Part shown: positions 19,369 to 40,984 of the stretch, piece after piece
Position numbering within the stretch: the first letter of the stretch is position 1
Layout: each line of letters opens with the position of its first letter
Assembly: GCA_026129915.1 (NCBI GenBank)
Contig: JAHCHD010000025.1
Coordinates: forward strand, 1-44,242
DNA length: 44,242 bases
Direction: 5' to 3'
Source: Bryobacterales bacterium
Lineage (GTDB): Bacteria > Acidobacteriota > Terriglobia > Bryobacterales > Bryobacteraceae
Made by a program: the position numbers and the translations under genes
Notes under the pieces: generated by a model
The model's database searches: none
Seen by the model: the letters and a program-made list of their open reading frames with translations, nothing else
Told to the model about the DNA's origin: nothing

Positions 19369-19390
19369 ATCCCGAAAAGTAGGGATTTTT
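19369..19390 (+). terminator. Candidate intrinsic terminator/attenuator upstream of cobU
   Basis: ATCCC (19369-19373) pairs with GGGAT (19382-19386) across an 8-nt loop, and a run of five T ends at 19390. The stem is short. It could end antisense-region transcription or act as the expression platform of the B12-box candidate just before it. The rest of 19191-19612 shows no gene I recognise. Confidence 0.35.
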
Positions 19391-19612
19391 CCCGGTCTAA
19401 GTGCGGAGAAGATCACCAGTTCGACGAAGGCCGTGAGTGCTTGGAAGCCGCTCGTCATCTTGGATCTTGCCCTCAGTCTGCACTCTTGGGCCGCAGTGTC
19501 GGTGCGGCGTGACTGGTCGCGAACGTGCTGCGCACTGATTCCTCAACATTTTCATGAAGATACCGATATGGGCGGTAGTAGCAATCGTGGCTACGCGGGT
19601 ATTGGAGAACCA

Positions 19613-20859: not shown

Positions 20860-21668
20860 GCCGCGATCAGGCCCGCGATCCGCTGCATGGCCATCGCCGC
20901 GGGGTTCGCTGCTTCCAGGATGTCGGCTGCCGGAATGGGTGCGCCGAATCGAATCAGGAAACGGCCAGCTTCTGAGATTCCGCACGGAACCGCGGGCATG
21001 CCCTGTTTCGCCAGTTGCCGCATGAATCGGTCAATGCCCGGAAGTGCGTCTGTGAGTTTACCCGCGAAACCCGCCACGCCCTCGGGGAATAATCCGATGG
21101 GGCGGTCTAGCTGTTTCGCATCCTGCAGAATTCTGCGCAGCGCCTTTGCCGTGCGCTTGGGATCCTTGCCCGCAAAGGGAATGGCGTAGCAGTGCAGCGC
21201 ATGCGCCACGCGTGGCAGCAGAATGTCGCCGGGCGAGCGGAACTGGATGGGGCCGAACTTCCAGCGGGGCCAGTTAGCGGTAACCACCCATCGCACAGGT
21301 GGGTCGCCCGCCCCGTAATGCTGCCGGATTGCCTGCGTTACCACCCCTGCCGAATGCAGAATCCATAGGCCTTCGCGCTGGTAGTGGTTGGCCACCAGCA
21401 GAAAACGCGGACTCGCCGGCAGATGCTCGAAACCCTCGAAAACCGGAGGCGGCTGAATGTAACCAAGAATGGCCCGGGTAAATGCGTCCACGTCCGTGCG
21501 CGTACCCCGCCAGATATGCTCCGTGAGGCCGGCAACCAGCTTCCAGGGCACGGGGTAGCTGAGCTGTTCGCTGGGCGGCGATGCGCTGCAGACCGGGATG
21601 CTGGATCCCGTACTGTCTTCCCCCTTGTCCAGGGTCCTTCCGCTTCCAGAAGACGCCTCGGCGCTCAT
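20856..21668 (-). CDS. PlsC-like acyltransferase at the end of the carotenoid operon
   Basis: A 270-residue 1-acyl-glycerol-3-phosphate-type acyltransferase. The catalytic motif is ANHYQREGLW (H-x4-D family with glutamate/glycine in the D region), and the substrate motif IGLFPEGVAGF fits block III (FPEG). ATG 21668 overlaps the upstream glycosyltransferase stop (ATGA), so translation is coupled. Given its place after a CrtQ-like glycosyltransferase, I infer that it esterifies a glycosylated carotenoid, as CrtO does in staphyloxanthin synthesis, although the sequence resembles general PlsC proteins. A phospholipid role is the alternative. Confidence 0.78.
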   Translation of the reverse strand: MSAEASSGSGRTLDKGEDSTGSSIPVCSASPPSEQLSYPVPWKLVAGLTEHIWRGTRTDVDAFTRAILGYIQPPPVFEGFEHLPASPRFLLVANHYQREGLWILHSAGVVTQAIRQHYGAGDPPVRWVVTANWPRWKFGPIQFRSPGDILLPRVAHALHCYAIPFAGKDPKRTAKALRRILQDAKQLDRPIGLFPEGVAGFAGKLTDALPGIDRFMRQLAKQGMPAVPCGISEAGRFLIRFGAPIPAADILEAANPAAMAMQRIAGLIAA

Positions 21669-22735
21669 CCCACCATCCTCCCTTTCCAATCTGTCTTGCC
21701 GCGCGTAAGGGCCTTCAGCATGCCACTGAGAGCGATTAGCTGGAACAGGTAGATGGCGATGGGCGCTCGCCACAGTGCGGCAAGCGTACGGTACCAGGGA
21801 AGGAGCGTAACCCCGGGAACAAGAGTGAACAATCCCGCGGCAAGCCACTCCTGGGCCAGAATCAGCACAACCAGCAGAGGAAGGTAGGTGGTGAAAATAA
21901 TGCTGGCCACCACCACCAGTAGTCCACTCAAGGGGTTCACCAGCAGGAACCGAAAGGAGTTCTTCTCAAACCCCCGCCAGATGGCGCCCAGGTTCTCGTA
22001 CATGCGCACATTACCGAGGCCTTCGGCCCGGATCACGCGGGTGATGAGTTCCTTTTCCTTGGCTAGCCGCGCCATTGCAACGTCTTCGATCACACTATTG
22101 ATCACCGCCTGATGGCCGCCGAGCTTCTCGTAGGCGTCACGCCGCACCAGCAAGCACTGCCCGTTGGCCAGCGCCTCCCGGGAAATCACGGAGTTTACAT
22201 TCGCCGGGTTCACTCCAGTGAAGTAGAGAGCAAAGGCATAAGGCAGCAGGATCTGTTCCGGGGCGGAGACGGTATGCTGCAGCAGGAACGCGCTCACCAT
22301 GTCGAGCTTCTCCGCTTCCGCATAGCCAGCAAAGGTAGCCGCAAAACGCGGATCGTACCAGGTGTCGGCATCCACAAACAAAAGCCAGCGACTGTCGGCG
22401 GCTGAGGCGCCTCGCTGACATGCGTTGGGCTTGCCAAGTGCCCCAGGGGGCAGCGGAGGTGCGTCCATCACCAGAGCGCCTGCTCTTCGGGCAATCTCGG
22501 CTGTGGTGTCAGTGGATCCGTCGTCCACTACAATCACGGGCAGTCCCGGAAAGCTCGACAAAACCCGTCCGATATTCGCCGCTTCGTTGCGGGCGGGAAT
22601 GATGACGGTGAGGTCCGGCTGCGACGTCGTAAGCTGCAACTGCAGATTCGGAAGTCGCACGTAGCTCAAGTGCGCCTTCCATCCCACCACCAGAATGGCA
22701 ATAGAAAAAACAATCGCTGCAGTGAGAGCAGTCAT
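21665..22735 (-). CDS. GT2 glycosyltransferase, CrtQ-like
   Basis: The 356-residue family-2 glycosyltransferase has an N-terminal helix (about residues 5-22), the core LTVIIPARNEAANIGRVL, VIVVDDGSTDTTAEI, LFVDADTWYDPRFA (DxD), VNSVIEDVAMARLAKEKE, and three C-terminal helices ending in TDWKGRMVG. The late WKGR and general layout recall S. aureus CrtQ, which glucosylates a C30 carotenoid acid, and HpnB-like hopanoid-associated enzymes. It starts 2 bp after the molybdoenzyme stop and overlaps the acyltransferase by 4 bp. The acceptor is inferred from the operon to be a carotenoid. Confidence 0.85.
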   Translation of the reverse strand: MTALTAAIVFSIAILVVGWKAHLSYVRLPNLQLQLTTSQPDLTVIIPARNEAANIGRVLSSFPGLPVIVVDDGSTDTTAEIARRAGALVMDAPPLPPGALGKPNACQRGASAADSRWLLFVDADTWYDPRFAATFAGYAEAEKLDMVSAFLLQHTVSAPEQILLPYAFALYFTGVNPANVNSVISREALANGQCLLVRRDAYEKLGGHQAVINSVIEDVAMARLAKEKELITRVIRAEGLGNVRMYENLGAIWRGFEKNSFRFLLVNPLSGLLVVVASIIFTTYLPLLVVLILAQEWLAAGLFTLVPGVTLLPWYRTLAALWRAPIAIYLFQLIALSGMLKALTRGKTDWKGRMVG

Positions 22736-22737
22736 GG

Positions 22738-24252
22738 CTAGAGTTTACGAATTGTAGGTCCGGCGACGCCCGCCGGGAACATAGGCACAATTCTATCCGC
22801 CTGCCAATTGCCTTGGCCATCCATCGCGCGAGCTTCGAGGGTGGCGGCGGCGGAATCGTCTGGCAATTCCGCACGGTAGCGCACCCAACTCAGCGGAGAC
22901 AGCCCAGTTTCGAGCTCCGCGTCCCTCCACTCGCCTTGCCCTAGCCGCACCTGCACCCGCTGGATGCCGCGGCTTCCAGCAAACGCGATTCCTCCGCAAA
23001 CCAGGCGGCCGCCCTCACGCGTGAAGTTATCAATGGAACACATCGTGTGTACCGGCGCCTCGCGCTCATATCCCATCTTCTGATAGGTGCCCACGTAAGG
23101 CTCAGTGACAAACCGAATCTCCTTCAGCCACTTGATGTGTTTGAAGCCAAAGTATCGCGGACACAGCACGCGAATGGGGAACCCGTGCCTGCGGTCAAGT
23201 GTATCGCCATTCATGCCGAGTGCTAGCAAGGTTTCGTCGCTGAAGGCGTAGTCCACTGAGAGGCTATCGCCATGCCCATCCACCCCTTCAAAGGCAACCG
23301 CGATGGTGCCGGGAGGCACGCGGTCGCGTGCGATCAACTGGCTAAGGCGGATGCCGCTCCACGCGGCGTTCCCCATGAGGTCAGAGCTAAGGGTGTTGCT
23401 GATGCAGCGCAGCGTGACAAAGCGCTCCTGACGCGGCAACGCTAACAGTTCACTGTAGCTGTAGGAGGCAAGACGACGATCTCCGGCGTTGATCGCCAGC
23501 CGCCAGCCTCGGGGATCAATCGTGGGGTCCACCGCATTTTTGCTCATCCGGTAAAACTCGCTTACCTTCGTAAGCCAGGGGCGCACAAGGCTACGCGCAA
23601 AGCGCGGATTCTCCGCCGGGGTCTCGAATGAAAAAAGGCGAACTGGTTCCACGGCTCGATTTGCGGAGAGCATCTCGCGAAGGTAACTTTCCACCGCCAC
23701 CAGCACCACGCCGCCTCCCATCACGATGGGTAGCGCCGTGACGCCAATGCTGGTAAGAAAGTCGCGCCGCGGCTTACCCTTGCCCACGAACTGCATGGCA
23801 TACTCCGACGCTTCGCCCCAATCCTCGTCCAGGAGTTCCAGGTGCGGTTTGCCGACGATCAACAAGGCAAGCAGCGCGGGTACCCAGAACGCGAGCGAAC
23901 CGCCCAGCGACCGGTATTCAAAGAAGCGCTGAATCACCACCACGGCAGGCACAGCCAGCACCACCAGCACGAAGAAGCGCTCATACTTCCGGTTTCGCCA
24001 GTACGAGAGCATCGCCGGAACCCACAAGCAGAGCCCCAGCATGAACAAGCCACCCGTCATCGCGAAAGGCTTTGCCAAGGGGCCGAAGGTTTCCAGAATC
24101 CAAAGTGCCGCCGCGGAAGGCGTGTTCTTCATGATCCATTCGGCAATGGACTCTGTGAGCAGCGACGTGCCAAACAGGTAGAACGCCAGGTAGTGCGGCA
24201 CCAGTCCAAGCAGCGTGGCAATGGAGGAGTCCCGAATCGTCTTCTTAAGCAT
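22738..24252 (-). CDS. Membrane-anchored sulfite-oxidase-family molybdoenzyme with internal Tat motif
   Basis: This 504-residue protein has four N-terminal hydrophobic helices (about residues 13-35, 62-82, 93-110 and 116-134), then a twin-arginine motif KPRRDFLTSIG (160-170) directly before a fifth helix (about 169-188). The rest is an oxidoreductase molybdopterin domain of the sulfite oxidase/YedY family. Cys283 in FVTLRCISNTL is the likely Mo ligand; RVLCPRYFGFKHIKWLKEI and a C-terminal Mo-co dimerisation-like Ig domain follow. Polytopic proteins whose last helix is handed from Sec to Tat are known (Rieske QcrA and some actinobacterial molybdoenzymes). The gene overlaps crtB by 8 bp. Its substrate is unknown; the carotenoid operon suggests a link. 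Confidence 0.86.
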   Translation of the reverse strand: MLKKTIRDSSIATLLGLVPHYLAFYLFGTSLLTESIAEWIMKNTPSAAALWILETFGPLAKPFAMTGGLFMLGLCLWVPAMLSYWRNRKYERFFVLVVLAVPAVVVIQRFFEYRSLGGSLAFWVPALLALLIVGKPHLELLDEDWGEASEYAMQFVGKGKPRRDFLTSIGVTALPIVMGGGVVLVAVESYLREMLSANRAVEPVRLFSFETPAENPRFARSLVRPWLTKVSEFYRMSKNAVDPTIDPRGWRLAINAGDRRLASYSYSELLALPRQERFVTLRCISNTLSSDLMGNAAWSGIRLSQLIARDRVPPGTIAVAFEGVDGHGDSLSVDYAFSDETLLALGMNGDTLDRRHGFPIRVLCPRYFGFKHIKWLKEIRFVTEPYVGTYQKMGYEREAPVHTMCSIDNFTREGGRLVCGGIAFAGSRGIQRVQVRLGQGEWRDAELETGLSPLSWVRYRAELPDDSAAATLEARAMDGQGNWQADRIVPMFPAGVAGPTIRKL

Positions 24253-25183
24253 TCATCGACTTCCAGAAGGCGAAGCGGTTCAAGGTATGCCTTGCCATGG
24301 GCAGGGCCATGGAGCGCGCGGTGATCCAATACTTTCGGGAGGCGGGAACCACAGCCCGCCGGTGAAACACATCAAAGTCGTTATCCACAATCTCTTTCAG
24401 GATGCCACGATAGACGTCCGCCGCGACGATTACTGCAAACCGGCCGTCGGCGCTCAGCAGTGGAATGCCTGGTCTTGCTTGTTGGTAGAAGCCTTCCGCA
24501 CGCGCAATTTGGAACTTCATCAGGCTGCGGAAACGCTCGTCGCGAATGCCCGCGCGAAGGTCATTGGCGGTATAGCCGAACTGGGCCATTTCTTCATGCG
24601 GCAGATAGATGCGGCCACGGCCGAGGTCCTCCCCCACATCGCGCAGGATATTGGTGAGTTGCAGGGCGATGCCCAGGTCGATGGCATGGGCGGGCGCGGG
24701 TTCACGGAAGCCAATCACGTGGCACATCATCAGCCCCACCACTGATGCCACGCGGTAGCAGAAGACGCGCAACTCCTCGAAGTTCTGGTATTGCGTGCCC
24801 CGCAAGTCCATGCGCATCCCCTCAATCAGCTCCATCGGATACTCGAGCGGGATTGCGTAGCGGCGGGCCGTCTCCACAAAAACGCGCAAGATGGGATCGT
24901 CGGCGGTGCCATTGTCCCAGGCACGCAGAAGCATCGCCTCCCAGGCGTCTAGCTGTCCTTCGCCAATCGCGGCGGAGGGCGCTTCGTCCACCAGGTCGTC
25001 TGTATGCCGGCAAAACCAGTACACCGCGTGCGCGGCCTTCGCCAGATGCGCTGGAAAGAAACGTGTGGCGAAGTAGAAGCTCTTCGAGCCCTCCGCCGTG
25101 GCGTTTGCTGCTTGTGCGTAGCAGGCGTCGAGGGCCGCAATGGAACTGCTGGATTCTGCGCCTAGAGCGGTAGTCGATCGCAA
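24245..25183 (-). CDS. crtB: Phytoene/squalene synthase family enzyme
   Basis: This 312-residue head-to-head prenyl synthase carries both Asp-rich motifs: WFCRHTDDLVDE (about residues 57-68) and LTNILRDVGEDLGRGRIYLP. The SKSFYFATRFFP start and EGMRMDLRG are also typical. It condenses two prenyl diphosphates, probably GGPP to phytoene given the CrtE-like gene in the operon. The start is TTG 25183, supported by GGAG about 9 bases upstream and by the lack of another start before the conserved region. It overlaps crtI by 22 nt and the molybdoenzyme gene by 8 nt. Confidence 0.92.
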   Translation of the reverse strand: MRSTTALGAESSSSIAALDACYAQAANATAEGSKSFYFATRFFPAHLAKAAHAVYWFCRHTDDLVDEAPSAAIGEGQLDAWEAMLLRAWDNGTADDPILRVFVETARRYAIPLEYPMELIEGMRMDLRGTQYQNFEELRVFCYRVASVVGLMMCHVIGFREPAPAHAIDLGIALQLTNILRDVGEDLGRGRIYLPHEEMAQFGYTANDLRAGIRDERFRSLMKFQIARAEGFYQQARPGIPLLSADGRFAVIVAADVYRGILKEIVDNDFDVFHRRAVVPASRKYWITARSMALPMARHTLNRFAFWKSMNA

Positions 25184-26655
25184 ACGAGGTTCTCCGCAAT
25201 TTTAGATGAACACAGAACCCCAGGGATTCCTGCGCCGGGGTGCGTGCCGGCACCCACGAAAAAGAGGTTCCCGATATCCTCGCTCTCATTGTGCGGGCGG
25301 AACCACGCAGATTGGGTGAACACTGGTTCGAACGAGAACGCCGCTCCCAGATAGCTGTTCAGCTTGGTTTCGAAATCAAGCGGCGTGATAAACATCTCCG
25401 TGGCGAGGTTCTCAAGCAGGCCGGGCATGTACTTTTCGTCCAGAAAGCTGAGGATCTTGCGCATGTAGCGCTGGCCTTCCGTATGCCAATCCGTGCCGCT
25501 CGCCAGGTGTGGTACCGGCGACAGGACATAGAAGCAATCGCATCCGTCAGGCGCCATGCGCGGGTCCGTGGCGGAGGGACGGTGCAGGTACAGCGAGAAG
25601 TCGTCAGAAAGTATCTTCTTATTGAAGATGTCGTCCAGCAATTCCCGGTAGCGGTCACCCAGGATGATGGTGTGGTGGGCAATATCGGAGTACGGCTTCT
25701 TCGTGCCGAAATAGCCCACAAACAGCGACATACTGTAGCTCAGCTTCTCGAAGCGCCGGTCGGTGTTCTTCTTGCGGGCAGCCGACGGGATCATCTTCCG
25801 ATAGGTGTTGGCGATGTCGGCATTGCTCACCACGGCATCCGCTTCAAATTTCTCTCCGTCCATGGTCTCCACGCCGGTCACGGCGTTTTTGCCATTCAAG
25901 AGGATCCGTCTTACGGGCTTGGAGGTGTGGATCTTTCCTCCGCAGTCCTCAAATAACTGCACAAGTCCGCCCACCAGCGCCCCGGTGCCGCCCATTGCAT
26001 AGTGCACCCCCCACTCCTTTTCCAGGTGATGGATCAGCGCATAGATGGAAGTGGTCTGAAAGGGATTCCCGCCCACCAGCAAAGGGTGAAAGCTAAACAC
26101 GCGGCGGAGCATGGGGTCCTTCACGTACTGGGAAACAAACTGAAACACAGTCTTGTGCGAGTCCAGCCGGATGAGGTCCGGCGCGATCTTCATCATGTCC
26201 ATGAAGCGCAGAAAAGGCTTGTCGGAGAGTTCCAGAAAGCCCTTCTTGAAAATCGCCTCCGCCTTCTGGATCATGGTCCGATAGCCGTCGACATCCCCGG
26301 GCGCGAAGTCACGAATCCGCTGTTCGGTTTGCTGCTGATTGTTGTTGTACTCGAAACTGCGACCGTCGGGGAACTCAATCCGGTAGAAGGGGTCAATGGG
26401 CACGATCTTCACGTAGTCCGCGGTCTTGCGGCCCGCAGCTGCAAAGATCTCATCAATCAGGAAAGGTGCGGTGATTACCGTTGGGCCGGCGTCGAAAGTA
26501 AAGCCGTCCTGTTGGTAAACGTAGGCGCGCCCGCCCGGTTTGTCGCGGGCTTCCAGTATGGTTACGTCGTAACCGCGGGCTTGCAAACGGCAAGCGGCGC
26601 CGAGGCCGCCGAAACCGCTACCGATGACAATGATTTTTCTGGTTTGCGTAGGCAT
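25162..26655 (-). CDS. crtI: CrtI-type phytoene desaturase
   Basis: The 497-residue FAD-dependent carotenoid desaturase has the N-terminal dinucleotide-binding site IVIGSGFGGLGAACRLQARG, ILEARDKPGGRAYVYQQDGF, FDAGPTVITAP, a middle region with HHLEKEWGVHYAMGGTGALV, and the CrtI C-terminal signature NLFFVGAGTHPGAGIPGVL. The length fits CrtI (about 490-510). It would introduce double bonds into phytoene to form lycopene-like polyenes. Product desaturation number cannot be read from the sequence. It sits between crtE (38-nt overlap) and crtB (22-nt overlap). Confidence 0.94.
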   Translation of the reverse strand: MPTQTRKIIVIGSGFGGLGAACRLQARGYDVTILEARDKPGGRAYVYQQDGFTFDAGPTVITAPFLIDEIFAAAGRKTADYVKIVPIDPFYRIEFPDGRSFEYNNNQQQTEQRIRDFAPGDVDGYRTMIQKAEAIFKKGFLELSDKPFLRFMDMMKIAPDLIRLDSHKTVFQFVSQYVKDPMLRRVFSFHPLLVGGNPFQTTSIYALIHHLEKEWGVHYAMGGTGALVGGLVQLFEDCGGKIHTSKPVRRILLNGKNAVTGVETMDGEKFEADAVVSNADIANTYRKMIPSAARKKNTDRRFEKLSYSMSLFVGYFGTKKPYSDIAHHTIILGDRYRELLDDIFNKKILSDDFSLYLHRPSATDPRMAPDGCDCFYVLSPVPHLASGTDWHTEGQRYMRKILSFLDEKYMPGLLENLATEMFITPLDFETKLNSYLGAAFSFEPVFTQSAWFRPHNESEDIGNLFFVGAGTHPGAGIPGVLCSSKIAENLVCDRLPL

Positions 26656-27466
26656 TCAGGTAGTCGAGAAGAACCAGGAGGCGCTCTTTGCCTTCGCCGA
26701 AGGGAGCGAGCAGCTCTCGCGAGGCATTCAGGTGTTGCAGAAAAGGCTGATGGTGGTCAGCGTCTCCATCCAGCAGGTCATCCACCATCTGGAAGGCACG
26801 GCCAAACTCACGGCCAAAGAGCCGAAGGCGCGATCGGTCTTCATGGTCCAAATCCACGCCCACCATTCCTGCCTCCACGGCAAGCTCGAACAGTGGCACG
26901 GTCTTCATTTCGTTCACTTCCGCGCGATGAGAAACGGCGGACGCCTCGCAAAGCGTCAGATCACGCGCCTGTCCTGCAATCAGGCCCGCGCAGTCGAGCG
27001 TCCGCAGCAGACGCTTCTGAAAGTCCACCAACTGCGGTAGCTGGGACCTGGATACCGTCACCTCCAGCACACAACGGCTGCCAAGCGCCACCAGGCCAAA
27101 TGCGGCAAGCACGGCGGTCGACTCGTCGAAGGCCACATGCACCGTGGGTCGTCCGCGACGTTCCGACTCATTATCCATGCACGGAAGGTCGTCGATAATC
27201 AGGGATGCACAGTGGAACAGTTCCACCGCCGCAGCCGCGCGCAAGGCGAGGGGACTTGCTCCATGGCCCAACATTTGAGCCACCCTTAGTGAAAGAGTGG
27301 GCCGAATCCGCTTGCCACCGCCTAGGGTCGCGTAGGCCATCGCGTCATGAACGCTGCCACAGTCGCCTTCGGTGCTTGGCGCCAGCAACACGGCAAGTTC
27401 CCGCTCGACACACTCACGCTCATTACCCAGATTGAGACTGGCTCCGGATGTGACGCTAACAGCCAA
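26618..27466 (-). CDS. crtE: Polyprenyl diphosphate synthase, CrtE-type (GGPP synthase)
   Basis: The 282-residue trans-prenyl synthase has the first Asp-rich motif in FHCASLIIDDLPCMDNESER, followed by RRGRPTVH, and the second in AFQMVDDLLDGDAD. The HCASLxxDDLPCMD context is that of CrtE-type GGPP synthases rather than IspA. GGKRIRPTLSLRVAQ supplies the diphosphate-binding lysine and arginine. The start is TTG 27466: GGAGG at 27476-27480 lies 9 bases upstream and no ATG precedes the conserved region. It is the first gene of the operon and would supply C20 precursor to crtB. Chain length is inferred, not proven. Confidence 0.9.
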   Translation of the reverse strand: MAVSVTSGASLNLGNERECVERELAVLLAPSTEGDCGSVHDAMAYATLGGGKRIRPTLSLRVAQMLGHGASPLALRAAAAVELFHCASLIIDDLPCMDNESERRGRPTVHVAFDESTAVLAAFGLVALGSRCVLEVTVSRSQLPQLVDFQKRLLRTLDCAGLIAGQARDLTLCEASAVSHRAEVNEMKTVPLFELAVEAGMVGVDLDHEDRSRLRLFGREFGRAFQMVDDLLDGDADHHQPFLQHLNASRELLAPFGEGKERLLVLLDYLNAYANQKNHCHR

Positions 27467-27880
27467 GGCGAACGACCTCCGTTAGGTTAGGGTATACGGT
27501 GATGCCTGTTTTCATTGGTCCGTGATTCTTGCCGTCAACGGCCGTTCTTGCCACCAAGAATGCCACATGCCCCGAAGTGAGGAGCTTGAAAATCAAAATG
27601 GGGGGCTTACACCACAACAACCGCCTCAAGTTGCGTGGCGCACACCGCTTCATCTTATGGCTTCTGGCTAGTTCGTAGATGCACAGTGTAACAAGATCGG
27701 TGCTTCATTTGAAGCTGTTGCGGGCTAAAGAAAGAGGAAGGTTTTCAGCTTCGAATGGCTGCGCGCACGGCATGCGACGGAATGTCTGCTGGAGAGCACC
27801 AATTCAGACAGGAACGAAGGCGGAAAGACACCAAAGTGGCGGACGGAAGCAAGATTCGCTCCCGTCCCCGCACTTCCAAC
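27467..27880. other. Intergenic region upstream of carotenoid operon and downstream of msrA
   Basis: No gene is recognised in these 414 bases. The part nearest crtE contains a TATACC-like -10 on the minus strand (27491-27496) with no convincing -35, plus the repeat cluster described at 27526-27560. The remaining stretch shows nothing I can name. Confidence 0.45.
27526..27560. promoter_or_regulatory. Repeat cluster upstream of crtE, possible operator
   Basis: TTCTTGCC occurs at 27526-27533 and 27545-27552. A 10-bp palindrome AACGGCCGTT spans 27537-27546, and TTCTTG (27545-27550) pairs with CAAGAA (27555-27560) across CCAC. The cluster lies 60-95 bp upstream of the crtE start, where a regulator of carotenoid genes could bind. 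No regulator gene is adjacent. Confidence 0.35.
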
Positions 27881-28579
27881 TTACTTCTTCTGAGGGTCGG
27901 CCAGCAGTTCCGGATAAGCCTTCTTCAGCTTCTCCACCTTCGGCAATGCATTCCCTACCACGTAACCCTGGCTGGGGTTGTTGCGCACGTAGTCCTGATG
28001 GTATGACTCAGCCGGATAGAACTTTTCCAGCTTCTCCAGAGTCGTGACGATCTTCTTGCTGAAAATGCCCGCAGCGTTCAGTTGCGCGATATAGGCCTCC
28101 GCCACTTTTTTCTGCTCGTCATTCGCGTAAAAAATCGCGGAGCGATATTGCTTGCCGTAGTCCGGACCCTGCCGGTTCAACTGCGTGGGGTCGTGGGCCA
28201 CCGCGAAGAAAATCTGCAGCAGTTTTCCATAGCTGATCACATTCGGGTCGTAGGTTACTTCGATCACTTCCGCGTGATCTGTCATTCCCGCCGACACCTT
28301 GCGATAGTCAGCCGTATCCGCGCTACCGCCGGCATAGCCGGAGACCACGTTCTTCACGCCACGAACCCGTTCGCATACCGCCTCTGTACACCAGAAGCAA
28401 CCCCCGGCGAATACCGCCTTCGCCGTCTTCTGCTGCTTTTCCGCCGTGGCATCCAGCAGCGGGGCGGGGAAGGGAGCCTTAGTTTCGGCAGCCTGTGCGT
28501 CGGTCTGTAAGGCAGTCGTGAGCCAGGAGAACATCAGCACACCTCCAAGCGCGATAAACAAAATCTGAATGCGTTTCAT
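27881..28579 (-). CDS. msrA: Exported peptide methionine sulfoxide reductase A
   Basis: The 232-residue protein reduces methionine-S-sulfoxide in proteins. The signal peptide ([19 protein letters not shown], residues 2-20, cleavage near AQA-A) places it in the periplasm. Catalytic Cys61 lies in [12 protein letters not shown]; downstream are [31 protein letters not shown] and a C-terminal [18 protein letters not shown] 28579 is chosen because AGGAGAGAGGAAAC lies just upstream and the signal peptide begins there. Periplasmic repair after oxidative damage is the expected role. Confidence 0.95.
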
Positions 28580-32366: not shown

Positions 32367-32406
32367 TTGCCGGGGGCAGCGTAAGTTCAAGGAAAGATTG
32401 GAGACA

Positions 32407-33531
32407 ATGGTCCAAAGTAGCCGTATCGCGGTGGCAATGAGCGGAGGGGTGGATAGCTCCGTGGTTGCGGCATGGCTGCATCAGCGCGGTGAGAATATCG
32501 TCGGGATGACAATGCAGCTTTGGAACCAGCGCCGGCTTCCCGAGGTTGCTTCCGAGAACGCCACCGGGCGTTGCTGTTCCCTTGACGACGTCTACGACGC
32601 CCGCTATGTGGCAAACCAGATTGGGATTCCCTACTATGTAGTGAACTTTGAGGACCGCTTTGAGGAACATGTCGTCAAGCCGTTTGTTCAGGACTACTTG
32701 GAAGGGAAAACCCCCATCCCCTGTACACTTTGTAACAATTTCATCAAGTTCGACCAGTTTCTGGATATGGCCGCCAGCGTAGGTGCGTCGTACGTCGCCA
32801 CCGGGCACTACGCACGAATCCGCCAGGATGCCGCAAGCGGCCGTTGGCAACTGCTGCGCGCCGTGGACGAAAGCAAAGATCAGACCTACTTTCTGTTTGG
32901 GCTGACGCAGGAACAGCTTTCCCGCACGCTTTTCCCCTTGGGTGAGATGCGCAAAGACGAAGTGCGCGGCCTTGGACGGAGCCTCGAGGTACCCATCGCC
33001 GACAAGCCGGATAGCCAGGAAATCTGTTTCGTGCCCAACGGGGACTACGCAGCCTTTATCGACGCCTACCTGAAGGAACAAGGCCGCGAGGCCCCACTTA
33101 CTGACGGCGAGATCCACGATGAGGAAGGGAAGCCATTGGGCCGGCATCGCGGGGTGCATCACTTCACCGTGGGGCAGAGGAAGGGAATTGGTATTGCCCG
33201 ACCGGAGCCTCTCTATGTGATTGCTACTGAGCCAGGGTCCCAGACCGTCGTGGTTGGCGATGGCGATTCGCTCCTGCGCCGCCGTATGCTTGTGCGGGAG
33301 GTCAACTGGATTTCAATCGGGGAACCTGTGGGGAAAATTCGCGCCGAAGTGCGGATCCGCAATCGGCATACTCCTGCAAATGCAACGGTTTGGGTTGATA
33401 AATACAATCAATTAGTCGAAGTTCACTTCGACGAGCCACAGCGGGCAATTACTCCAGGACAAGGAGCGGTCTTCTATCAGGGCGACCTCGTTTTGGGTGG
33501 TGGTTGGATCCAGCGATCTGAATTGGGATGA
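32407..33531 (+). CDS. mnmA: tRNA-specific 2-thiouridylase
   Basis: MnmA adds sulfur to U34 of tRNA Lys, Glu and Gln. In this 374-residue protein the PP-loop is AMSGGVDSS (residues 10-18). The catalytic cysteines are C106 or C109 in PIPCTLCNNFIKF and C207 in SQEICFVPNGDY. ATGHYARI, DESKDQTYFLFGL and FTVGQRKGIGI are also diagnostic. ATG 32407 has AAGGAAAG about 10 bases upstream; a TTG at 32398 is too close to it. The cysteine desulfurase directly upstream is the expected sulfur donor, although Tus-relay proteins are absent here. Confidence 0.97.
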   Translation: MVQSSRIAVAMSGGVDSSVVAAWLHQRGENIVGMTMQLWNQRRLPEVASENATGRCCSLDDVYDARYVANQIGIPYYVVNFEDRFEEHVVKPFVQDYLEGKTPIPCTLCNNFIKFDQFLDMAASVGASYVATGHYARIRQDAASGRWQLLRAVDESKDQTYFLFGLTQEQLSRTLFPLGEMRKDEVRGLGRSLEVPIADKPDSQEICFVPNGDYAAFIDAYLKEQGREAPLTDGEIHDEEGKPLGRHRGVHHFTVGQRKGIGIARPEPLYVIATEPGSQTVVVGDGDSLLRRRMLVREVNWISIGEPVGKIRAEVRIRNRHTPANATVWVDKYNQLVEVHFDEPQRAITPGQGAVFYQGDLVLGGGWIQRSELG

Positions 33532-33586: not shown

Positions 33587-34558
33587 ATGCACTTGCAGTT
33601 CCATCTTTATCTCATTGCATTGAAAACACGATCTTCAGCTCGAAATGTTGCCGAATACCTCGTGGCGCGAAGTATTATCTTCGTGCTGGCGAGGCTGCCC
33701 AGCGCGATCAGCTATCGCCTCGCGCGTTGGATTGCGCACTTGCTTCGACTCTTTGTGCCCCGTCTCTCCCAGGTGGCGCTCCGGAACCTGAAACTCACAA
33801 AGCCAGAGCTGGGTGAGTTGGACCGATCCCGGATAGTGCGTGGGGTTTTCGATTCCGTTGCGCGTTTACTATGGGTTATGGCCAATACCGTAAGTAGCAC
33901 ACAAGATAATGAGGCTAAACGTAAGCATAAGCTGGACAAAGTCTTCACCATGGAAGGGTTGGAGATTGTCGATGAGGCGTTCTCGAAGGGCCACGGGATT
34001 CTATTTGCCACGGGACATCTTGGCGCCTGGGAATTAAGTGCACTCGGCTTTGGCGCAAAGGTGCGGCCAATGGATATCATCGCCAGGCCGCTCGATAACC
34101 CCTTGCTAGACCGATGGATTACGGCGTTGCGCGAGTCATCGGGCAACCGTGTTTTGGCGAAGTCAGGCACTGTTCGGGAGGTGCTGCGTGCTCTCGGTGA
34201 GAATCGCGCAGTTGGCTTTCTGGTAGATCACAACGTGATTTCGAGCGACCTCTGCTTCATCCGCTTTCTTGGAGTGGAAGCTGCTGCAAGCACCGTGTTT
34301 GCAAAGCTGGCCGCGCGAACCGGGGCAGTGGTCATCCCCGGATTTTGCCTTTGGGAAGAGACGCGCAAGCAGTTTGTGCTTCGCTTCTATCCGCCGGTGC
34401 CCATAAGCGGCAATACCATTGAGGATACGCAACGTATACACAGTTGCCTCGAAGAGGTACTGCTGGCGTACCCGGAGCAATGGCTGTGGGTCCATCGACG
34501 TTTCAAAACGAGGCCTGGCGGGGAAGCCGACTTGTATTCGAATCTGCAAGGCGCTTGA
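33587..34558 (+). CDS. LpxL/HtrB-family lipid acyltransferase
   Basis: The 323-residue protein belongs to the LpxL/HtrB/LpxM acyltransferase family. An N-terminal hydrophobic region (about residues 28-50) anchors it. The catalytic H-x4-E motif is FATGHLGAWELSALGFG (about residues 140-156); VGFLVDHNVI and FLGVEAAASTVFAKLAARTG follow, as does the C-terminal LLAYPEQWLWVHRRFKTRP, a family signature. It would add an acyl chain to lipid A or a related lipid from acyl-ACP. No ribosome binding site is obvious before ATG 33587. Base composition is a little less GC-rich than in the neighbours. Confidence 0.9.
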   Translation: MHLQFHLYLIALKTRSSARNVAEYLVARSIIFVLARLPSAISYRLARWIAHLLRLFVPRLSQVALRNLKLTKPELGELDRSRIVRGVFDSVARLLWVMANTVSSTQDNEAKRKHKLDKVFTMEGLEIVDEAFSKGHGILFATGHLGAWELSALGFGAKVRPMDIIARPLDNPLLDRWITALRESSGNRVLAKSGTVREVLRALGENRAVGFLVDHNVISSDLCFIRFLGVEAAASTVFAKLAARTGAVVIPGFCLWEETRKQFVLRFYPPVPISGNTIEDTQRIHSCLEEVLLAYPEQWLWVHRRFKTRPGGEADLYSNLQGA

Positions 34559-34581
34559 CGGAAGGGATATGAAAGTTTTTG

Positions 34582-35205
34582 ATGAAGAATCACATTGAAG
34601 CCGTATTGTTTGACTTCGACGGGGTGTTGGTGGATAGTGAGCCCATTCATTTTGCCGCCTGGCAGGAAGCGCTGGCGCCGTTTGGGGTCGCATTGCCAGT
34701 GGATCCGTATTACACGCGATTCATCGGGCTCGAGGACCGGGCCGCCATTCGGATGCTGGCCGCGGAACAGGTGCCGCCTCGGGAGTTCGACGAACTTTGG
34801 CCAGCGTTTCAGGTGAAGAAGCACATCTTCAACGAACGGTTTGAGAAAGCACCACAGGTAGTGGATAAGACGCGGGATGTGATTGCGGAGCTGAGTGCGG
34901 CTGGCTATCGATTGGGAGTGGTGACATCTAGTTCTGTGCAGGAAGTGGACCCCATCCTCGTCCGGAATGGAATTCGCCAATACATGCAGACCTGCGTGTT
35001 CGCCGAGGACGTTGCACGGAAGAAGCCGCACCCGGAACCCTACCTGACGGCCAAGCATAGGCTTGGTGTGGAGCGCGCTTTGGTGCTGGAGGACTCCCAT
35101 GCGGGTATGGAGAGCGCCCAGGCCTCGGGATGCGAGGTGATTCGAGTGACTGAAGTGGGGGAGGTGGCTGGATTACTGCGCGCTCGATTGGGGCTCGGCG
35201 TGTGA
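34582..35205 (+). CDS. HAD-superfamily phosphatase/phosphoglucomutase-like
   Basis: This 207-residue HAD enzyme has motif I VLFDFDGVLVDSEPIHFAAW, motif II VVTSSSVQEV, the motif III lysine in ARKKPHPEPYL and motif IV LVLEDSHAGMESAQASGC. DFDGVLVDSEP and EDSHAG are typical of the beta-phosphoglucomutase and sugar-phosphatase branch. The substrate cannot be read from the sequence. ATG 34582 is preferred; the in-frame TTG 34579 is directly before it. GGAAGGGA (34560-34567) is the nearest ribosome binding site, rather far away. Confidence 0.88.
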   Translation: MKNHIEAVLFDFDGVLVDSEPIHFAAWQEALAPFGVALPVDPYYTRFIGLEDRAAIRMLAAEQVPPREFDELWPAFQVKKHIFNERFEKAPQVVDKTRDVIAELSAAGYRLGVVTSSSVQEVDPILVRNGIRQYMQTCVFAEDVARKKPHPEPYLTAKHRLGVERALVLEDSHAGMESAQASGCEVIRVTEVGEVAGLLRARLGLGV

Positions 35206-35230
35206 GCCTCCGTCGTGAGGCATGTATGTG

Positions 35231-35258
35231 AGTTGACATAATATGTATTATCGGCGCT
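35231..35258 (-). other. dif: Candidate dif site (XerC/XerD chromosome dimer resolution)
   Basis: On the minus strand the 28-mer reads AGCGCCGATAA (left, XerC arm), TACATA (centre), TTATGTCAACT (right, XerD arm). The right arm matches the E. coli dif right arm TTATGTTAAAT at 9 of 11 positions and the B. subtilis arm TTATGTAAACT at 10 of 11. The left arm ends in ATAA as expected and shares 7 of 11 with E. coli GGTGCGCATAA. The inner ATAATA-TG-TATTAT dyad, the 11-6-11 spacing and the position between convergent genes all fit. It is the only such AT-rich site noticed in a GC-rich window. Confidence 0.7.
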
Positions 35259-35310
35259 TTTCCTGCCAGAACGCCAAACCCGAGGAGTTCGTTCCGTAAG
35301 GCCCGTCCGA

Positions 35311-36054
35311 TCAGCTAGGAGTCCTTTGCTCCCACCGCGTTCCACCCAGGGTCAACCGTCTTCCGTCACTACTCCCAATCCGTAGACGCAGTTCGGAATC
35401 TCCATCCGCTCGCACCGCCGGATAAAGCACGTCGCCCGGGCGCGCTTCATCCTGGAAGTCCACAGCCAGGCGGGTCAGCCTCTGCTGTCGCCACTGCGCA
35501 TCGGGGATGGCGGCGAGCATCCAGTCGAGGTAACGCACGTTGTTCACGTGGCCGTTCAAGTCGACATCCAGCCAGTGCACCCGGATCTCGTCCTGAGATC
35601 GCTCCGCGGCGAAGTCCTCGCCAATCTCCATGGGTTCCAGGGCGGGTTCCGGTTCGGGGTTCACCATTGCAAACACCTCTGCCGGCAGCCGGATGAGCTT
35701 CCAGCGGGCAACATCCAACATCAGCCACAGGCTGGTGGCCACCACAAGACGCTCGCCGGTTGCAGACTCCATCAGGAAATCGCGCCAGGCCCGGATGCCA
35801 GCCGAGCGTGACGACGCCCAGGTGGTTACCCGGCAGGGCTCCAGGAACCGTGGTGCGCGAGCACTGCCAGATAAACTCCGCAGAACCCAGGTGCGACCGG
35901 TCGTAAGTAGTTGATCTACAGTGAGTTCATGCTGGCGGGCGTGACCGTCGGCAGCCACTTGCAGGCGGCGAACCAGCGCCGAGGTACGCATTTCTCCTAA
36001 GGCATCGGAGTCAAACGAACTCACCGTGAAAGGGTAGACGAATTGCCGGGACAT
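35311..36054 (-). CDS. Acyl-ACP thioesterase-like protein
   Basis: The 247-residue double-hotdog protein resembles FatA-type acyl-ACP thioesterases. N-terminal half: FTVSSFDSDALGEMRTSALV and TTGRTWVLRSLSGSARAPRF. C-terminal half: the catalytic-region motif HWLDVDLNGHVNNVRYLDWM (about residues 160-180), which holds the N-x-H pair. It would release free fatty acids from acyl-ACP. It is downstream of the damaged ubiD gene on the same strand, with a strong hairpin between them. No other fatty acid gene is adjacent except the broken fabG about 1.7 kb away. Confidence 0.87.
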   Translation of the reverse strand: MSRQFVYPFTVSSFDSDALGEMRTSALVRRLQVAADGHARQHELTVDQLLTTGRTWVLRSLSGSARAPRFLEPCRVTTWASSRSAGIRAWRDFLMESATGERLVVATSLWLMLDVARWKLIRLPAEVFAMVNPEPEPALEPMEIGEDFAAERSQDEIRVHWLDVDLNGHVNNVRYLDWMLAAIPDAQWRQQRLTRLAVDFQDEARPGDVLYPAVRADGDSELRLRIGSSDGRRLTLGGTRWEQRTPS

Positions 36055-36078: not shown

Positions 36079-36103
36079 GGGCAGGGAGGTCACTTCCCTG
36101 CCC
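36079..36103. repeat. Perfect 9-bp inverted repeat hairpin
   Basis: GGGCAGGGA (36079-36087) and TCCCTGCCC (36095-36103) are exact complements around the 7-nt loop GGTCACT. It lies between the ubiD-family gene end and the thioesterase start. No T-run follows on either strand. Each arm also contains the GGGNAGGG form of the FtsK KOPS motif, in opposite orientations. Confidence 0.7.
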
Positions 36104-36125
36104 TATGTTGGACTGTCGCTTCCCC

Positions 36126-37571
36126 TTACAGTCCTGCCTTCTTCAGAGGGCGTCCACCCGCTGCTTCACCGCTGGATCCATGTGAAGCACGTCAGCCAGC
36201 GACGGGTGAAGCCTCTTCGGGCCACTTTCTGGTGGCGTCGACCCCCATTTTGGAGCCGAAGTGGGCAGACGGCTGGCGTGGTCGAGCGAATCCACGGGCC
36301 CAAGCACCATTTCGATGTCGCTGAGGTCGATGTTATTGAGGGGCCTTCCATGCTACTTCGCTCACGTCCTGCACGTTCACATCCTCGTCCACCACGACGA
36401 TGCACTTTGAACATCGCCTGGCCGGTGCCCCAGATGGAGTGCATTACCTTGCGGGCGTGCCCAGGATAGGCTTTCCGAATCGAGACCAGAATGAGATTGT
36501 GGAAGACCCCTTCCGGGCGGCACATCACAGATATCCACCACTTCGGGCAATTGCAGCTTCATCAATGTGGAAGATGCGCTCAACCGCCTTGCCCATCCAG
36601 AAATCCTCCATAGGTGGCGGACCCACAATGGTGGCGGCATACACCGGCTTCTTGCGGTGGGTAACGCAGGTAATGTGGAAGACGGGGTAGTCGTCGTCGA
36701 GGGAATAGAAGCCGGTGTGGTCGCCGAAAGGTCCTTCGCGGCGAAGTTCACCCAACTCCACGTAGCCCTCCAGCACGATCTCCGCGTCGGCTGGCACCAG
36801 CAGATCGTTCGTCTCGCTCTTCACCATGCGTACGGGTTCGTTTCGCAGGAAGCCAGCGAACATCATCTCGTCGATGTCGGGGGGCAGCGGAGCAATGGCG
36901 GAAAAGGTCACCGCTGGGTCAGCGCCAATTGCCACCGAGATCGGCATCCGCATGTCCTTGCCTTCAGCATTCAACTGCCGGTAGTGGTCAGCGCCTTGCT
37001 TGTGGGTTTGCCAGTGCATGCCGCAGGTCTTGTCGTCGAACACCTGCATCCGGTACATGCCGCAGTTGGGCTTGCCTGTCCTGCGACTGCGCGAAAACAC
37101 CAAGGGCAAGGTGATGTAGCGGCCGCCATCATCGGGCCAGCAATGCAGGATCGGGAAGGAGTCAAGCGAAAACTGCCCTTCCCGCAGGATGACTTCCTTG
37201 CAAGCCCCATCGGATACCGTCTTAGGGAAGATGTTCGAGAGCTCGCCCAGTTTGGGCAGCATCTTCATCGCGCCCATGATGCCCTCTGGCTTCTTGAGTT
37301 CCTTTAGCTCAGTGATGCGGACCGCGATGTCGTCCATGCGCTCCACCCCAAGGGCAATGGCCATGCGCCGGTCGCTCGCAAAGGCGTTGATCAGCAGTGG
37401 GATCTGTGATCCCTTGGGGTTCTCAAACAGCAGTGCGGGACCGCCCTGTTTGGCTCCGCGGTCAGCAAACTCAGTGATTTCCAGATAGGGGTCTACCTCG
37501 AAAGGGATGCGTTTGAGTTCCTTCTTCTTCTCAAGGGTGCGAATGAAATCCTGTAGATCGTCGTGGGGCAT
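36126..37571 (-). pseudogene. UbiD-family decarboxylase, 3' quarter broken by indels
   Basis: From ATG 37571 the frame is a normal UbiD-family (prenylated-FMN) decarboxylase: PHDDLQDFIRTLEKKKELKR, GPALLFENPKG, RYITLPLVFSRS, MYRMQVFDDKTCGMHWQTHK, DIDEMMFAGFLRNEPVRMVK, ELRREGPFGDHTGFYS and FWMGKAVERIF (about residue 335). It then breaks. [83 protein letters not shown] and FTRRW are all recognisable but in different frames, through at least six small indels between 36570 and 36144, most in short homopolymer runs. With these repaired the gene ends at TAA 36126-36128, giving about 481 residues, the family length. As sequenced it stops at 36525 (348 residues). Confidence 0.88.
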
Positions 37572-37727
37572 CGGGTTCGGCTTTCAGCGCGGAATGCTCG
37601 TGTGAGCAATGTGCGGGTGGGTTCCCGGCCGCGCATCTACTATGATGATTCATTTGGGCTTGATTGCGCCGAAAGTAGAGGCATTTGCACCGCAGCGGAT
37701 GCCCGGCGCGGAAAGTGAGAACAGGCA

Positions 37728-38463
37728 GTGAGCAAGAGAATTGCATTGGTTACAGGCGCCAGCCAGCATCGGGCGCACATGTGCGCAGCAGTTGGCGGCA
37801 GCAGGACATCACGTGGTGCTGGCAGCACGCCAGGCGGAGAAGTTGGAAGAGGTGGCGGCTGAGCTCCGCGCGGCCGGCGGCGAAGCCAGCGTGTGTGCCT
37901 TGGATCTGGCCAACACCGCTGGCATCGAACCCGCACTGAAGGAGTTGCTCGCACAAGTGGGCCAGGTAGACGTGCTGGTAAACAATGCCGGCATCACCAA
38001 AGACATGCTGGCGATGCGGATGAAGCTGGAGGACTGGGACGAGGTGCTTCGTGTGAATCTGACGAGCGCATTCCAGGTGAGCCAGGTGCTGATGCAGTCG
38101 ATGATCAAGAAGCGCTGGGGCCGGATCATCAACATCAGTTCCGTGGTGGCGCAGACGGGCAATGCAGGCCAGGCGAATTACGTGGCTTCGAAGGCGGGGC
38201 TGATTGGCCTCACCAAGACTCTGGCGTTGGAACTGGCCTCCCGCAACATCACGGTGAACGCGGTAGCGCCCGGCTTCATTGAAACCGACATGACCGCGGT
38301 GCTGAATGAGCAGATCCGGGAGCGATTGCTGGGGCTGATCCCGGCGAAGCGCTTTGGCACAGCCGAGGACATCGCAGGGGTGGTAACCTTCCTCGCCAGC
38401 GACGCAGCCAGCTACATCACCGGGCAGACAATTGGGGTAAATGGCGGCATGGCAATGCCTTAG
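37728..38463 (+). pseudogene. fabG: 3-oxoacyl-ACP reductase (SDR), 2-nt deletion in the cofactor motif
   Basis: From GTG 37728 the frame reads SKRIALVTGASQ, then is lost because two bases are missing near 37765. In the next frame it resumes as IGRTCAQQLAAAGHHVVLAA and continues intact to VNGGMAMP. Restoring GG gives TGASQGIGRTCAQQL, the TGxxxGxG NAD(P)-binding motif. The rest is typical FabG: NNAGITKDMLAMRM, the catalytic INISSVVAQTGN, YVASKAGLIGLTK (Y-x3-K), VAPGFIETDMT, and DAASYITGQTIGVNGG. Without the repair only an N-terminally truncated 240-residue product from a TTG at 37741 could be made, lacking the cofactor loop. It is divergent from the ubiD-family gene. Confidence 0.88.
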
Positions 38464-38485
38464 CTTCGGGCTGCCGGGCGTACTG

Positions 38486-40984
38486 CTACTTCGCGACCGG
38501 CTTCGCGCTGGCCAGATAGATGGCGTTTAGCAGCAGCTTGAAGGTAGCGAAGGTCTGGCCGCGATGCTGGGGGCGAATACCGAAGAGGATCACCCGGCCC
38601 TTGCCCATACGGACCTCTGTGACCGCGTCCCTTCCCTTAATCGCGTTCTCGCCGGTGATCCAGCCACTGGCCAGCAGGTCAGTGATGGAATAGCGGGCCA
38701 GTGTTCGTACTTCCGCCTCCGTGGTACGGCGGTCGCGCCCGGCGGTGGATTCAAACGCATAGCCGCCATTCACGAACGCCGTGGTACGCGCTGGCATGCC
38801 CGCTGTCAGCGTGTCACCCTGCAGCACGTCCAGGCGCACAATAGCTCCAGGAGCTTTAAAGGTTCCCGTTCGAACCACATTGGCTACGGGCAACGGAAAC
38901 ATGCTGATGGGGAGTTCCGTGGCAGCGCCCATGGTAATGAGTGTGCCGCCCTGTTCCACGAATTCACGCAGGGCAACCACGCCCTCCATGCCGACGCCTC
39001 CCGTGAACTCGGGCCGCATCAAGCTCTTCGCGGCGCTTTCGGCATTGTCGATGTAGCTGCTGGTGACGGTGGGCACACCGGGCTGATAGCCATGCAGGAT
39101 CACCGCCGTGGTTTGCGATGCAATTAGGATGGTGTCGAAGCGTTCCCTCAGGTTGCCGGCGCGCACGCCGTCGTTGCGAAGTTGTTCAAAGGGCACACGG
39201 TAATAGTCAAGCATCCATTGGGTCCAGCCACCATCCATGTCTCCGCGATGGGGGACGTACATGCCCACGCGAGGAGATCGCAGCTCCACCGCCGCCGAGT
39301 CTGGTGAGTTCGCTGGGAGGAAGTTCCCGCTGCTGGCCAGACGCACGGGCTGGCTCGACTTCAGGGCGTCGGCCACGGCCCAGAACGACGCATTCTGCCT
39401 TCGATCCCAGACAGGCTGGGGAGTTGAGAGTTCAGGCAAGTTGGCTAGACTCGCCTGGAACTGGTCGTTGATGCGAACGACGTCAACTCCCATCTGTAAG
39501 GAAAGCGTATAGCCCGAGGAATCATAAGGGGAAAGCACGGGGCCGCCATTTGGGCGGATTTCCGGATACTTGTGCGGCTCCAGCAGATCCATCAGGTAGC
39601 CACGGAAGGGCTGGGCGGCAGGGATAACGTAACTGCCCGCCGGATACTCTCGCCCGTCCGCGGTGAATCCGGCGATGGCTCGCTCCACGCGAACGCCGTT
39701 GGCTTGCAGGCGACGGGTCATCTCCTGCGCGCTAGAGGGGTCCCATTGCTCTGCGGAAACGACATAGGCGTAGGGCGAACCGCGCTTGCCGGCCTCAATT
39801 TGATCCTGTGCCAGTCGCCAGGCATTGAAGCTCCAGTGCTGCGGCATACTGGCAGCGAGGTTCAGCACAGCCATGCTGGCGGTGAGGTTGTAACCCACCG
39901 CGTCGCCGAGGCTCCATCGGCCACCCTTCCAAGGGTTGGGATAAAAGATGCTGGGCTTATCGGTGGGCATGCCGTTTGCGAAATTGCGGGGGAAGCGCGC
40001 GGAGTCGTAAACGTAAGGCGTGGCGTAATAATACCCTGCCGTTTCGGTGAGGATGCCGTGCATGTTGTGGAATGGCGGCGTGGTGCGCATGCCGCCATTC
40101 CACCAGCCATCAAAGCTGATATAGGAGATCGCACCAGGCTTGCCTTCCAACGCCAGACGTTCCTTGATGGTTTGCCCAATCAGACCAATGCCTTCCACCA
40201 CCGCGGACGGTATTGCCGGATTTAGCGGCTCGGAGTAAGGCGGCACGAACATGCGCGCGGGAAACGGCGCGGTCTGGTGCTGGTTGTAGACGATGTGCGG
40301 AAACCAATCCTGGTACAGAACCTTCGAGACGTGGCGTGTTTCAGCAAGGTTCAGCATGTACCAATCGCGGTTGTTATCGTGGCCGGAGTACTTCTGATAG
40401 AGGCCCGGGTAGGCAGCAATCTCGTATTCCGTGCCTACATTGCGGCGATACCACTCGGTGATCATCTGCAGCCCGTCCGGGTTGGTTACGGGCACAAGCA
40501 GCAGGATGACGTTGTCGAGGATCTGGCGAATCTCAGTACTATCTTCGCTAAGCAGCCTGTGCGCCAGAAGTGGGGCGTGCTGCGACGGGGTTACCTCCGT
40601 GGAGTGCATGCTGCAGTCGATCCACACAATTGCCTTGGCCTGCGCCGCCATCTGCCGGGCTTCCTCTTCCCCCACCTCAGCGAGCGCCAGTTTCCGCTGC
40701 ATCTGTTGGTACTCAGCAAGGCGGGCCAAATTGGCCGGGGAGGAAATATATGCCATCAGCATGGAACGGCCTTCGGAACTCTGGCCGATCTCCACAACCT
40801 GCATACGGTCACTTTCCCTGGCTAAGGTTTCAAAGTAGCTACGGATCTGGTCGTAGTCAGCCAGCTTGTAGTCATCGCCCGGAAGGAAGCCGAAATGCGC
40901 CTGAGGAGGCGTGACCTGGCCTACGGCCGACGCAATAAAAATCAGGCATAGTACGAGCGGGCGCAGCAGGGTTCGGGAAAGCAT
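38486..40984 (-). CDS. Secreted M14-family zinc carboxypeptidase-like protein
   Basis: The 832-residue exported protein has a signal peptide (LLRPLVLCLIFIASAVGQ, residues 6-23). An M14 peptidase domain follows: EIGQSSEGRSMLMAYIS, the zinc motif SMHSTE (H127, E130), VTNPDGLQM, and GHDNNRDWYMLNLAETR. The second half, with LREFVEQGGTLITMGAAT and GKGRVILFGIRPQHRGQT, resembles a glutamine-amidotransferase-like fold seen in large M14-like proteins of Acidobacteriota. ATG 40984 is chosen since the signal peptide begins there; a GTG at 41020 is in frame but would overlap the divergent aguB start. It probably trims peptides in the periplasm or outside. Confidence 0.85.
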   Translation of the reverse strand: MLSRTLLRPLVLCLIFIASAVGQVTPPQAHFGFLPGDDYKLADYDQIRSYFETLARESDRMQVVEIGQSSEGRSMLMAYISSPANLARLAEYQQMQRKLALAEVGEEEARQMAAQAKAIVWIDCSMHSTEVTPSQHAPLLAHRLLSEDSTEIRQILDNVILLLVPVTNPDGLQMITEWYRRNVGTEYEIAAYPGLYQKYSGHDNNRDWYMLNLAETRHVSKVLYQDWFPHIVYNQHQTAPFPARMFVPPYSEPLNPAIPSAVVEGIGLIGQTIKERLALEGKPGAISYISFDGWWNGGMRTTPPFHNMHGILTETAGYYYATPYVYDSARFPRNFANGMPTDKPSIFYPNPWKGGRWSLGDAVGYNLTASMAVLNLAASMPQHWSFNAWRLAQDQIEAGKRGSPYAYVVSAEQWDPSSAQEMTRRLQANGVRVERAIAGFTADGREYPAGSYVIPAAQPFRGYLMDLLEPHKYPEIRPNGGPVLSPYDSSGYTLSLQMGVDVVRINDQFQASLANLPELSTPQPVWDRRQNASFWAVADALKSSQPVRLASSGNFLPANSPDSAAVELRSPRVGMYVPHRGDMDGGWTQWMLDYYRVPFEQLRNDGVRAGNLRERFDTILIASQTTAVILHGYQPGVPTVTSSYIDNAESAAKSLMRPEFTGGVGMEGVVALREFVEQGGTLITMGAATELPISMFPLPVANVVRTGTFKAPGAIVRLDVLQGDTLTAGMPARTTAFVNGGYAFESTAGRDRRTTEAEVRTLARYSITDLLASGWITGENAIKGRDAVTEVRMGKGRVILFGIRPQHRGQTFATFKLLLNAIYLASAKPVAK

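Follow-up and report, generated by a model that had tools for sequence, protein, structure and literature searches.

A predicted dif site with converging FtsK guide words marks the likely replication terminus of a Bryobacteraceae genome

We analysed a stretch of 44,242 nucleotides from a Bryobacterales bacterium (hereafter the window) and found that 28 bp on its minus strand are very likely the chromosomal dif, where XerC and XerD, both encoded in this Bryobacteraceae genome, would turn dimers of the chromosome into monomers (Table 1). The dif reading had been proposed in an earlier note made from the letters of the window, and it is supported by the single copy of the site, by the inversion of KOPS orientation around it, by counterparts in congeners and by a position opposite dnaA in two relatives. 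The site itself is ordinary, a well-conserved member of a familiar class of site. Three points appear worth pursuing: the KOPS polarity in the absence of GC skew, the one-sided synteny boundary at the site and the lack of polarity in a distant relative.

The 28-mer is laid out as an 11-bp XerC arm, a 6-bp centre and an 11-bp XerD arm with palindromic inner arm positions, and the 11-6-11 arrangement described in the earlier note was present on the minus strand at 35231-35258. The site is non-coding and its G+C content is 10/28, against about 0.6 in the window. The gene-free gap between convergent genes was likewise recovered as described; its neighbours are a HAD hydrolase gene and an acyl-ACP thioesterase gene. 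The criteria for dif given in the available part of PMC2731167 are the 11-6-11 layout, palindromic inner arms, a better conserved XerD arm, a non-coding location and a G+C content below that of the chromosome. The source is a 5.28-Mb draft split over 333 contigs, with a completeness of 84.9%; the window is its contig 168. The 28-mer was expected to be unique, and one copy was detected in the draft at up to 3 mismatches (reversed control, 0). The skeleton ATAA-N6-TTATGT-N-AA occurs at one place without mismatch and at 43 more with 1-2 mismatches, while the reversed control gave 58 in total. A weight matrix built from 24 sites outside the genus, G050 of the same family also being left out, scored the site at 36.2 bits; the second score in the window was the same site on the opposite strand (2.8 bits) and the best independent place reached 1.9 bits. 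The corresponding sites were also top in the 230 kb contig of the congener G001 (36.4 vs 6.4 bits) and in the 879 kb contig of G050 (44.2 vs 10.8 bits).

Table 1. Coordinates of the predicted dif site, its flanking genes and the FtsK guide words in the window
Feature	Position	Strand	Remarks
dif site (predicted), 28 bp	35231..35258	-	AGCGCCGATAA-TACATA-TTATGTCAACT; single copy, conserved, weight-matrix score
XerD arm TTATGTCAACT	35231..35241	-	identical in all five genus members (5/5)
Central region TACATA	35242..35247	-	read from the sequence and the alignment
XerC arm AGCGCCGATAA	35248..35258	-	same in G001, G003 and G004; one change in G002
Gene-free gap, 105 bp, between convergent genes	35206..35310	.	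ORF/gene annotation
tRNA methyl transferase (MnmA-type) gene	32398..33531	+	conserved left flank
Lipid A acyltransferase gene	33587..34558	+	conserved left flank
HAD hydrolase gene	34579..35205	+	left neighbour, conserved in the genus
Acyl-ACP thioesterase gene	35311..36054	-	right neighbour, not found beside dif in congeners
Seven GGGNAGGG, all pointing to dif	1303..28474 (1303, 3998, 5838, 6150, 18576, 24299, 28467)	+	
Three GGGNAGGG right of dif, pointing to dif	36096, 37176, 38629 (stretch 36079..38636)	-	
One GGGNAGGG right of dif, pointing away	36079	+	
Decamer GGGCGGGGAA, pointing to dif	8486..8495	+	
Decamer GGGCGGGGAA, pointing to dif	28462..28471	+	
Decamer GGGCAGGGAA, pointing to dif	36094..36103	-	

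The comparison with related genomes, which the earlier note had proposed for the orthologous gap, detected a counterpart of the site in all four congeners searched (4/4). A 21-mer search at up to 3 mismatches matched 36 of 101 genomes (the window's genome included), one site each, with no match in the controls. The strict dif pattern ATAANNNNNNTTATGTNAANT was found in 70 of the 101 (again counting the window's genome), at exactly one site each, and its reversed control matched in 3/101. A looser pattern gave candidates in 16 of the 31 genomes without a strict match (17 places; controls, 0); at least one of these places, G027:C19, looks like a chance match. With both patterns a dif candidate was present in 86/101 genomes, and 15/101 had none by the strict or the looser pattern. 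Thirty of the 36 sites found with the 21-mer were aligned side by side: 12 of the 28 columns are invariant and the XerD arm is the better conserved. Across a phylum sample the strict pattern matched 146 of 297 genomes, a rougher figure since some genomes have several matches and the control matched in 20. A related exact pattern was present in records that carry the names of many other phyla, among the matches listed.

The earlier note regarded the site as a rare acidobacterial dif sequence, which does not hold, given the candidates in 86/101 genomes and the dif predictions of Kono et al. 2011 for all three Acidobacteria (3/3), including Acidobacterium capsulatum, in the available part of that paper (PMC3025954). 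Accordingly, dif in Acidobacteria is not new. Our literature search found no paper treating dif, XerCD and Acidobacteriota together, and for KOPS, FtsK and Acidobacteria together it found only Kono et al. 2011. The present analysis supplies a dif alignment at the genus and family level.

Twenty ORFs of the window were compared with the stretches around dif in six relatives. In G001, G002 and G003, the congeners whose contigs extend far enough, the genes for the tRNA methyl transferase, the lipid A acyltransferase and the HAD hydrolase follow one another up to dif on the left, as in the window; the HAD gene is also present in G004, whose contig begins near dif. In G005, from another genus of the same family, the 20 kb taken had no match to the window ORFs. 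On the right, genes for an M48 peptidase and an AI-2E-type transporter are common to G001, G003 and G004 (families named from G001); the genes there are others in G002 and others again in the window. Within the genus, synteny thus breaks at dif on one side only, the left side being kept while the five genomes show three different right flanks. On contig C12 of G050, a homologue of the HAD gene (44% identity, 453694-454275) was observed 3.3 kb left of dif at 457028 (+); the orientation of this dif relative to the HAD homologue is the reverse of that seen in the window's genus.

Mobile elements that exploit Xer recombination use dif, and the variable right flank between lineages of the genus would suit an attachment site of such an element (phage, plasmid or island), instead of or besides the host dif. 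We consider this explanation extremely improbable: the left flank consists of housekeeping genes, no second dif-like place was detected in the window or in the G001 and G050 contigs, and the ten right-flank ORFs of G001 and G002 showed no mobile-element family (five of the ten had no Pfam match at all). One exact pattern also had 0 matches in viral contigs, a search that a diverged attachment site would escape. The suggestion that the gap is a target for Xer-dependent elements thus found no example in these limited tests (three contigs, ten flank ORFs and the viral contigs).

Returning to the chromosomal dif, its position was assessed in G011 (same family) and G064 (same order), the two relatives whose contigs reach chromosome length. 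In G011 dif at 560,858 and dnaA at 3,809,571 lie 48.6% of the 6,690,628-bp chromosome apart, and in G064 the distance is 49.0% (dif 1,847,580, dnaA 4,876,064, of 6,185,587 bp). From these relatives we infer that the site lies at the terminus of the window's own genome, the placement being indirect because the draft is in 333 contigs. An AT-rich palindrome arisen by chance, or a regulatory element (promoter or terminator) resembling dif, might be suspected from TTGACA on the plus strand and from the short inverted repeat in the core. The location opposite dnaA in two relatives, the conservation of both arms across genera and the nearly empty reversed controls given above argue against such an origin, which we regard as scarcely credible. 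Promoter and terminator readings were rejected, since the scan found no promoter- or terminator-like site.

GC skew was expected to invert near 35 kb and did not: it is +0.040 to the left and +0.043 to the right of the site in the window. It is also flat across the site in G001 (-0.002/+0.003), in G050 (+0.025/+0.029) and in G011 and G029 of the same family. A switch at dif was detected in G084 (same class) and G068 (same order), and a weak one in G064 and G065 (same order). Nearness to a GC-skew switch is a usual correlate of dif and not a requirement, and GC skew as a dif marker was rejected for Bryobacteraceae. For a fragmented acidobacterial genome, a well-supported dif marks the likely terminus, which GC skew is unable to do here.

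The KOPS octamer GGGNAGGG was counted on nine contigs, namely the window, G001, G050, G011 and G029 (genus or family), G064, G065 and G068 (order) and G084 (class), overlapping matches being counted as they stand. The KOPS inversion looked for around the site was present: in the window the octamer is distributed 7:0 to the left and 1:3 to the right of dif (plus:minus strand; Fisher p = 0.024), and in the nine contigs pooled 294 copies point toward dif and 93 away. The octamer leans toward dif in 9/9 contigs, with Fisher p < 0.05 in eight of them (G065, p = 0.35). In every one of the nine, dif falls inside a best switch interval or within about 6 kb of one; in G064 another interval, about 42 kb off, scores equally well, and in G001 the polarity to the right of dif turns mixed at distances above about 25 kb. 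When all octamer pairs with at least 30 copies were ranked without prior choice, GGGCAGGG came first of 21,184 pairs (146:35). By gene context (a crude gene call) the bias of GGGNAGGG was 126:45 in genes directed toward dif, 125:30 in genes directed away and 86:36 in intergenic DNA; these classes sum to 337:111 and not 294:93, as each site was assigned by the gene context around it and two labels of the same name both took intergenic sites. Gene direction does not account for the bias, which holds in genes of both directions and between genes.

It could be argued that the site is a decoy or a former dif, with the true dif in the approximately 15% of the genome missing from the draft. An 84.9% complete assembly in 333 contigs leaves room for a second copy in the missing sequence, and the strict pattern matches more than once in some genomes from other parts of the phylum. 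The KOPS switch beside the site in the window speaks against this, as do the 70 positive genomes (of 101), which have one strict site apiece and no more, and the same site with the same left-hand gene in 4/4 congeners searched; we therefore hold a decoy to be very unlikely, though a shade less so than the two explanations above.

Around the window's dif, a hairpin of two head-to-head KOPS (GGGCAGGGA...TTCCCTGCCC) was noticed at 36079-36103, 0.8 kb to the right. One of 200 shuffles folds equally well (z -3.27), and no T run follows the hairpin.

KOPS polarity is not supported as a phylum-wide feature. In G254, a distant acidobacterium of another family that was set aside as a test genome, the dif-like site (contig C1, around 4,483,093) showed no GGGNAGGG polarity within 200 kb (45:49). 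Either another guide word is in use there or the dif-like site is not a true dif.

A longer guide word, GGGCRGGGAA, was examined in the same nine contigs, where 93 copies point toward dif and 3 away. The form GGGCAGGGAA alone gave 45:0. Along the whole chromosome GGGCAGGGAA points to dif in 39/40 cases in G011 and 42/49 in G064 (reversed control, 9 and 12 copies, respectively), and without the 100 kb on each side of dif that served for word discovery the figures are 36/37 and 36/43. All three GGGCRGGGAA in the window point at the site (3/3). In the window's genome, among the 100 places listed out of 111, 23 of 26 neighbouring decamer pairs on one contig share a strand. Strands are mixed in 3 of the 16 contigs with at least two listed decamers: the window (as expected), C273 and C1, the contig of dnaA (71367-72716). 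Two GGGCRGGGAA converge on C1 (791, plus strand; 97630, minus strand), the opposite of the divergence expected at an origin, which counts against the guide reading of the decamer.

The AA that follows the octamer in the decamer was found after 45 of the 146 toward-pointing GGGCAGGG in the nine contigs and, in E. coli, after 4 of 19 (Fisher p = 0.44), so that a 3' AA special to acidobacteria is not supported. Since these frequencies are not significantly different, the decamer describes these bacteria and carries no demonstrated difference from E. coli. GGGCRGGGAA is a sharper guide word than the octamer, and E. coli may have a similar tendency. Among the matches listed in the literature search for the decamer, the text-string matches concern other subjects, judging by title.

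The window's genome encodes the parts expected for dimer resolution. A XerD-like recombinase scored 324.6 bits, below the NCBIfam equivalog cut-off of 329.6, and a XerC-like recombinase scored 303.3 bits, below its cut-off of 335.15; the R, GKG, HxLRH, LGH and Y motifs are present in both. An FtsK gamma domain is encoded with a score over the cut-off, and the domain is present in all 11 relatives searched. The gamma sequence of these bacteria has GYGRAAR (GYSRAAS in G068) in comparison with GYNRAAR in E. coli, with D at the E1303 position. The residue that we take to be N1296 in E. coli numbering has G as its equivalent in the window's genome and is G or S in all 12 gamma domains compared; G068 also has S for R1300. 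In E. coli, R1300, E1303 and E1306 contribute to KOPS reading, according to the available part of PMC2680272. Counted along the alignment, these positions are R, D and Q in the window's genome. R1300 is therefore kept, while E. coli N1296, E1303 and E1306 are replaced by G, D and Q, the change of E1306 to Q being found in the window's genus.

As outlined in the available part of a XerCD/dif review (PMC5357621), FtsK loads on KOPS and moves toward dif, its gamma domain activates the first exchange by XerD, XerC completes the reaction and the dimer is converted to monomers. By analogy, homologous recombination between sister chromosomes in the source organism would produce a chromosome dimer; FtsK at the septum would load on KOPS (GGGNAGGG, most sharply GGGCRGGGAA) and pump DNA toward dif from both arms; and FtsK gamma would then activate XerD, after which XerC would finish the strand exchange between two dif sites. 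Beyond the presence of the parts, these steps are presumed for this organism.

Joining these observations, we offer a tentative hypothesis that we consider less likely than not. Bryobacterales and their close relatives might code the terminus by the FtsK guide word GGGCRGGGAA converging on dif instead of by GC skew. The reader of the word would be an FtsK gamma helix differing at two of the three E. coli KOPS-reading residues, other parts of the phylum would have lost or rewritten the code, and dif would be a one-sided synteny boundary whose XerC-side flank is exchanged among lineages of one genus.

With regard to the published record, Kono et al. 2011 described acidobacterial dif in the same phylum as the window's site, within the available part of that paper (PMC3025954). 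A 2026 paper considers a switch of KOPS at dif to be a hallmark (PMC13342612), and the string 'Acidobacteri' does not occur in the main text of that paper or in the main text of Hendrickson 2018 (PMC5993296). With the counts reported here, FtsK guidance through GGGCAGGG now reaches contigs from three acidobacterial families, while one genome from another part of the phylum gave a negative result; whether FtsK gamma and its guide word have evolved together is therefore testable within this phylum. KOPS polarity is also able to locate the terminus in little-studied bacteria.

Taken together, the system resembles dif/XerCD/FtsK-KOPS of E. coli in its 11-6-11 site, its two Xer recombinases, its FtsK gamma domain and the orientation of GGGNAGGG toward dif on either side. 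The E. coli dif 28-mer has an exact match in the terminus region of MG1655; 8 of the 28 bases of the window's site differ from it, two of them in the XerD arm. From the sequence that we take to be B. subtilis dif, 7/28 bases differ, one of them in the XerD arm, so that the arm distances stated in the earlier note (one base from B. subtilis, two from E. coli) were confirmed by comparison. The SRS octamer of the B. subtilis SpoIIIE/SftA system is GAGAAGGG; it is weakly polar in the nine contigs (72:38, vs 146:35 for GGGCAGGG) and was rejected as the guide, which is of the KOPS type. In E. coli MG1655, taken as the positive control, GGGNAGGG within about 200 kb of dif is distributed 34:2, compared with the less strict 294:93 in the nine contigs, and GC skew switches at the E. 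coli dif (+0.032/-0.033), whereas it is flat at the window's site.
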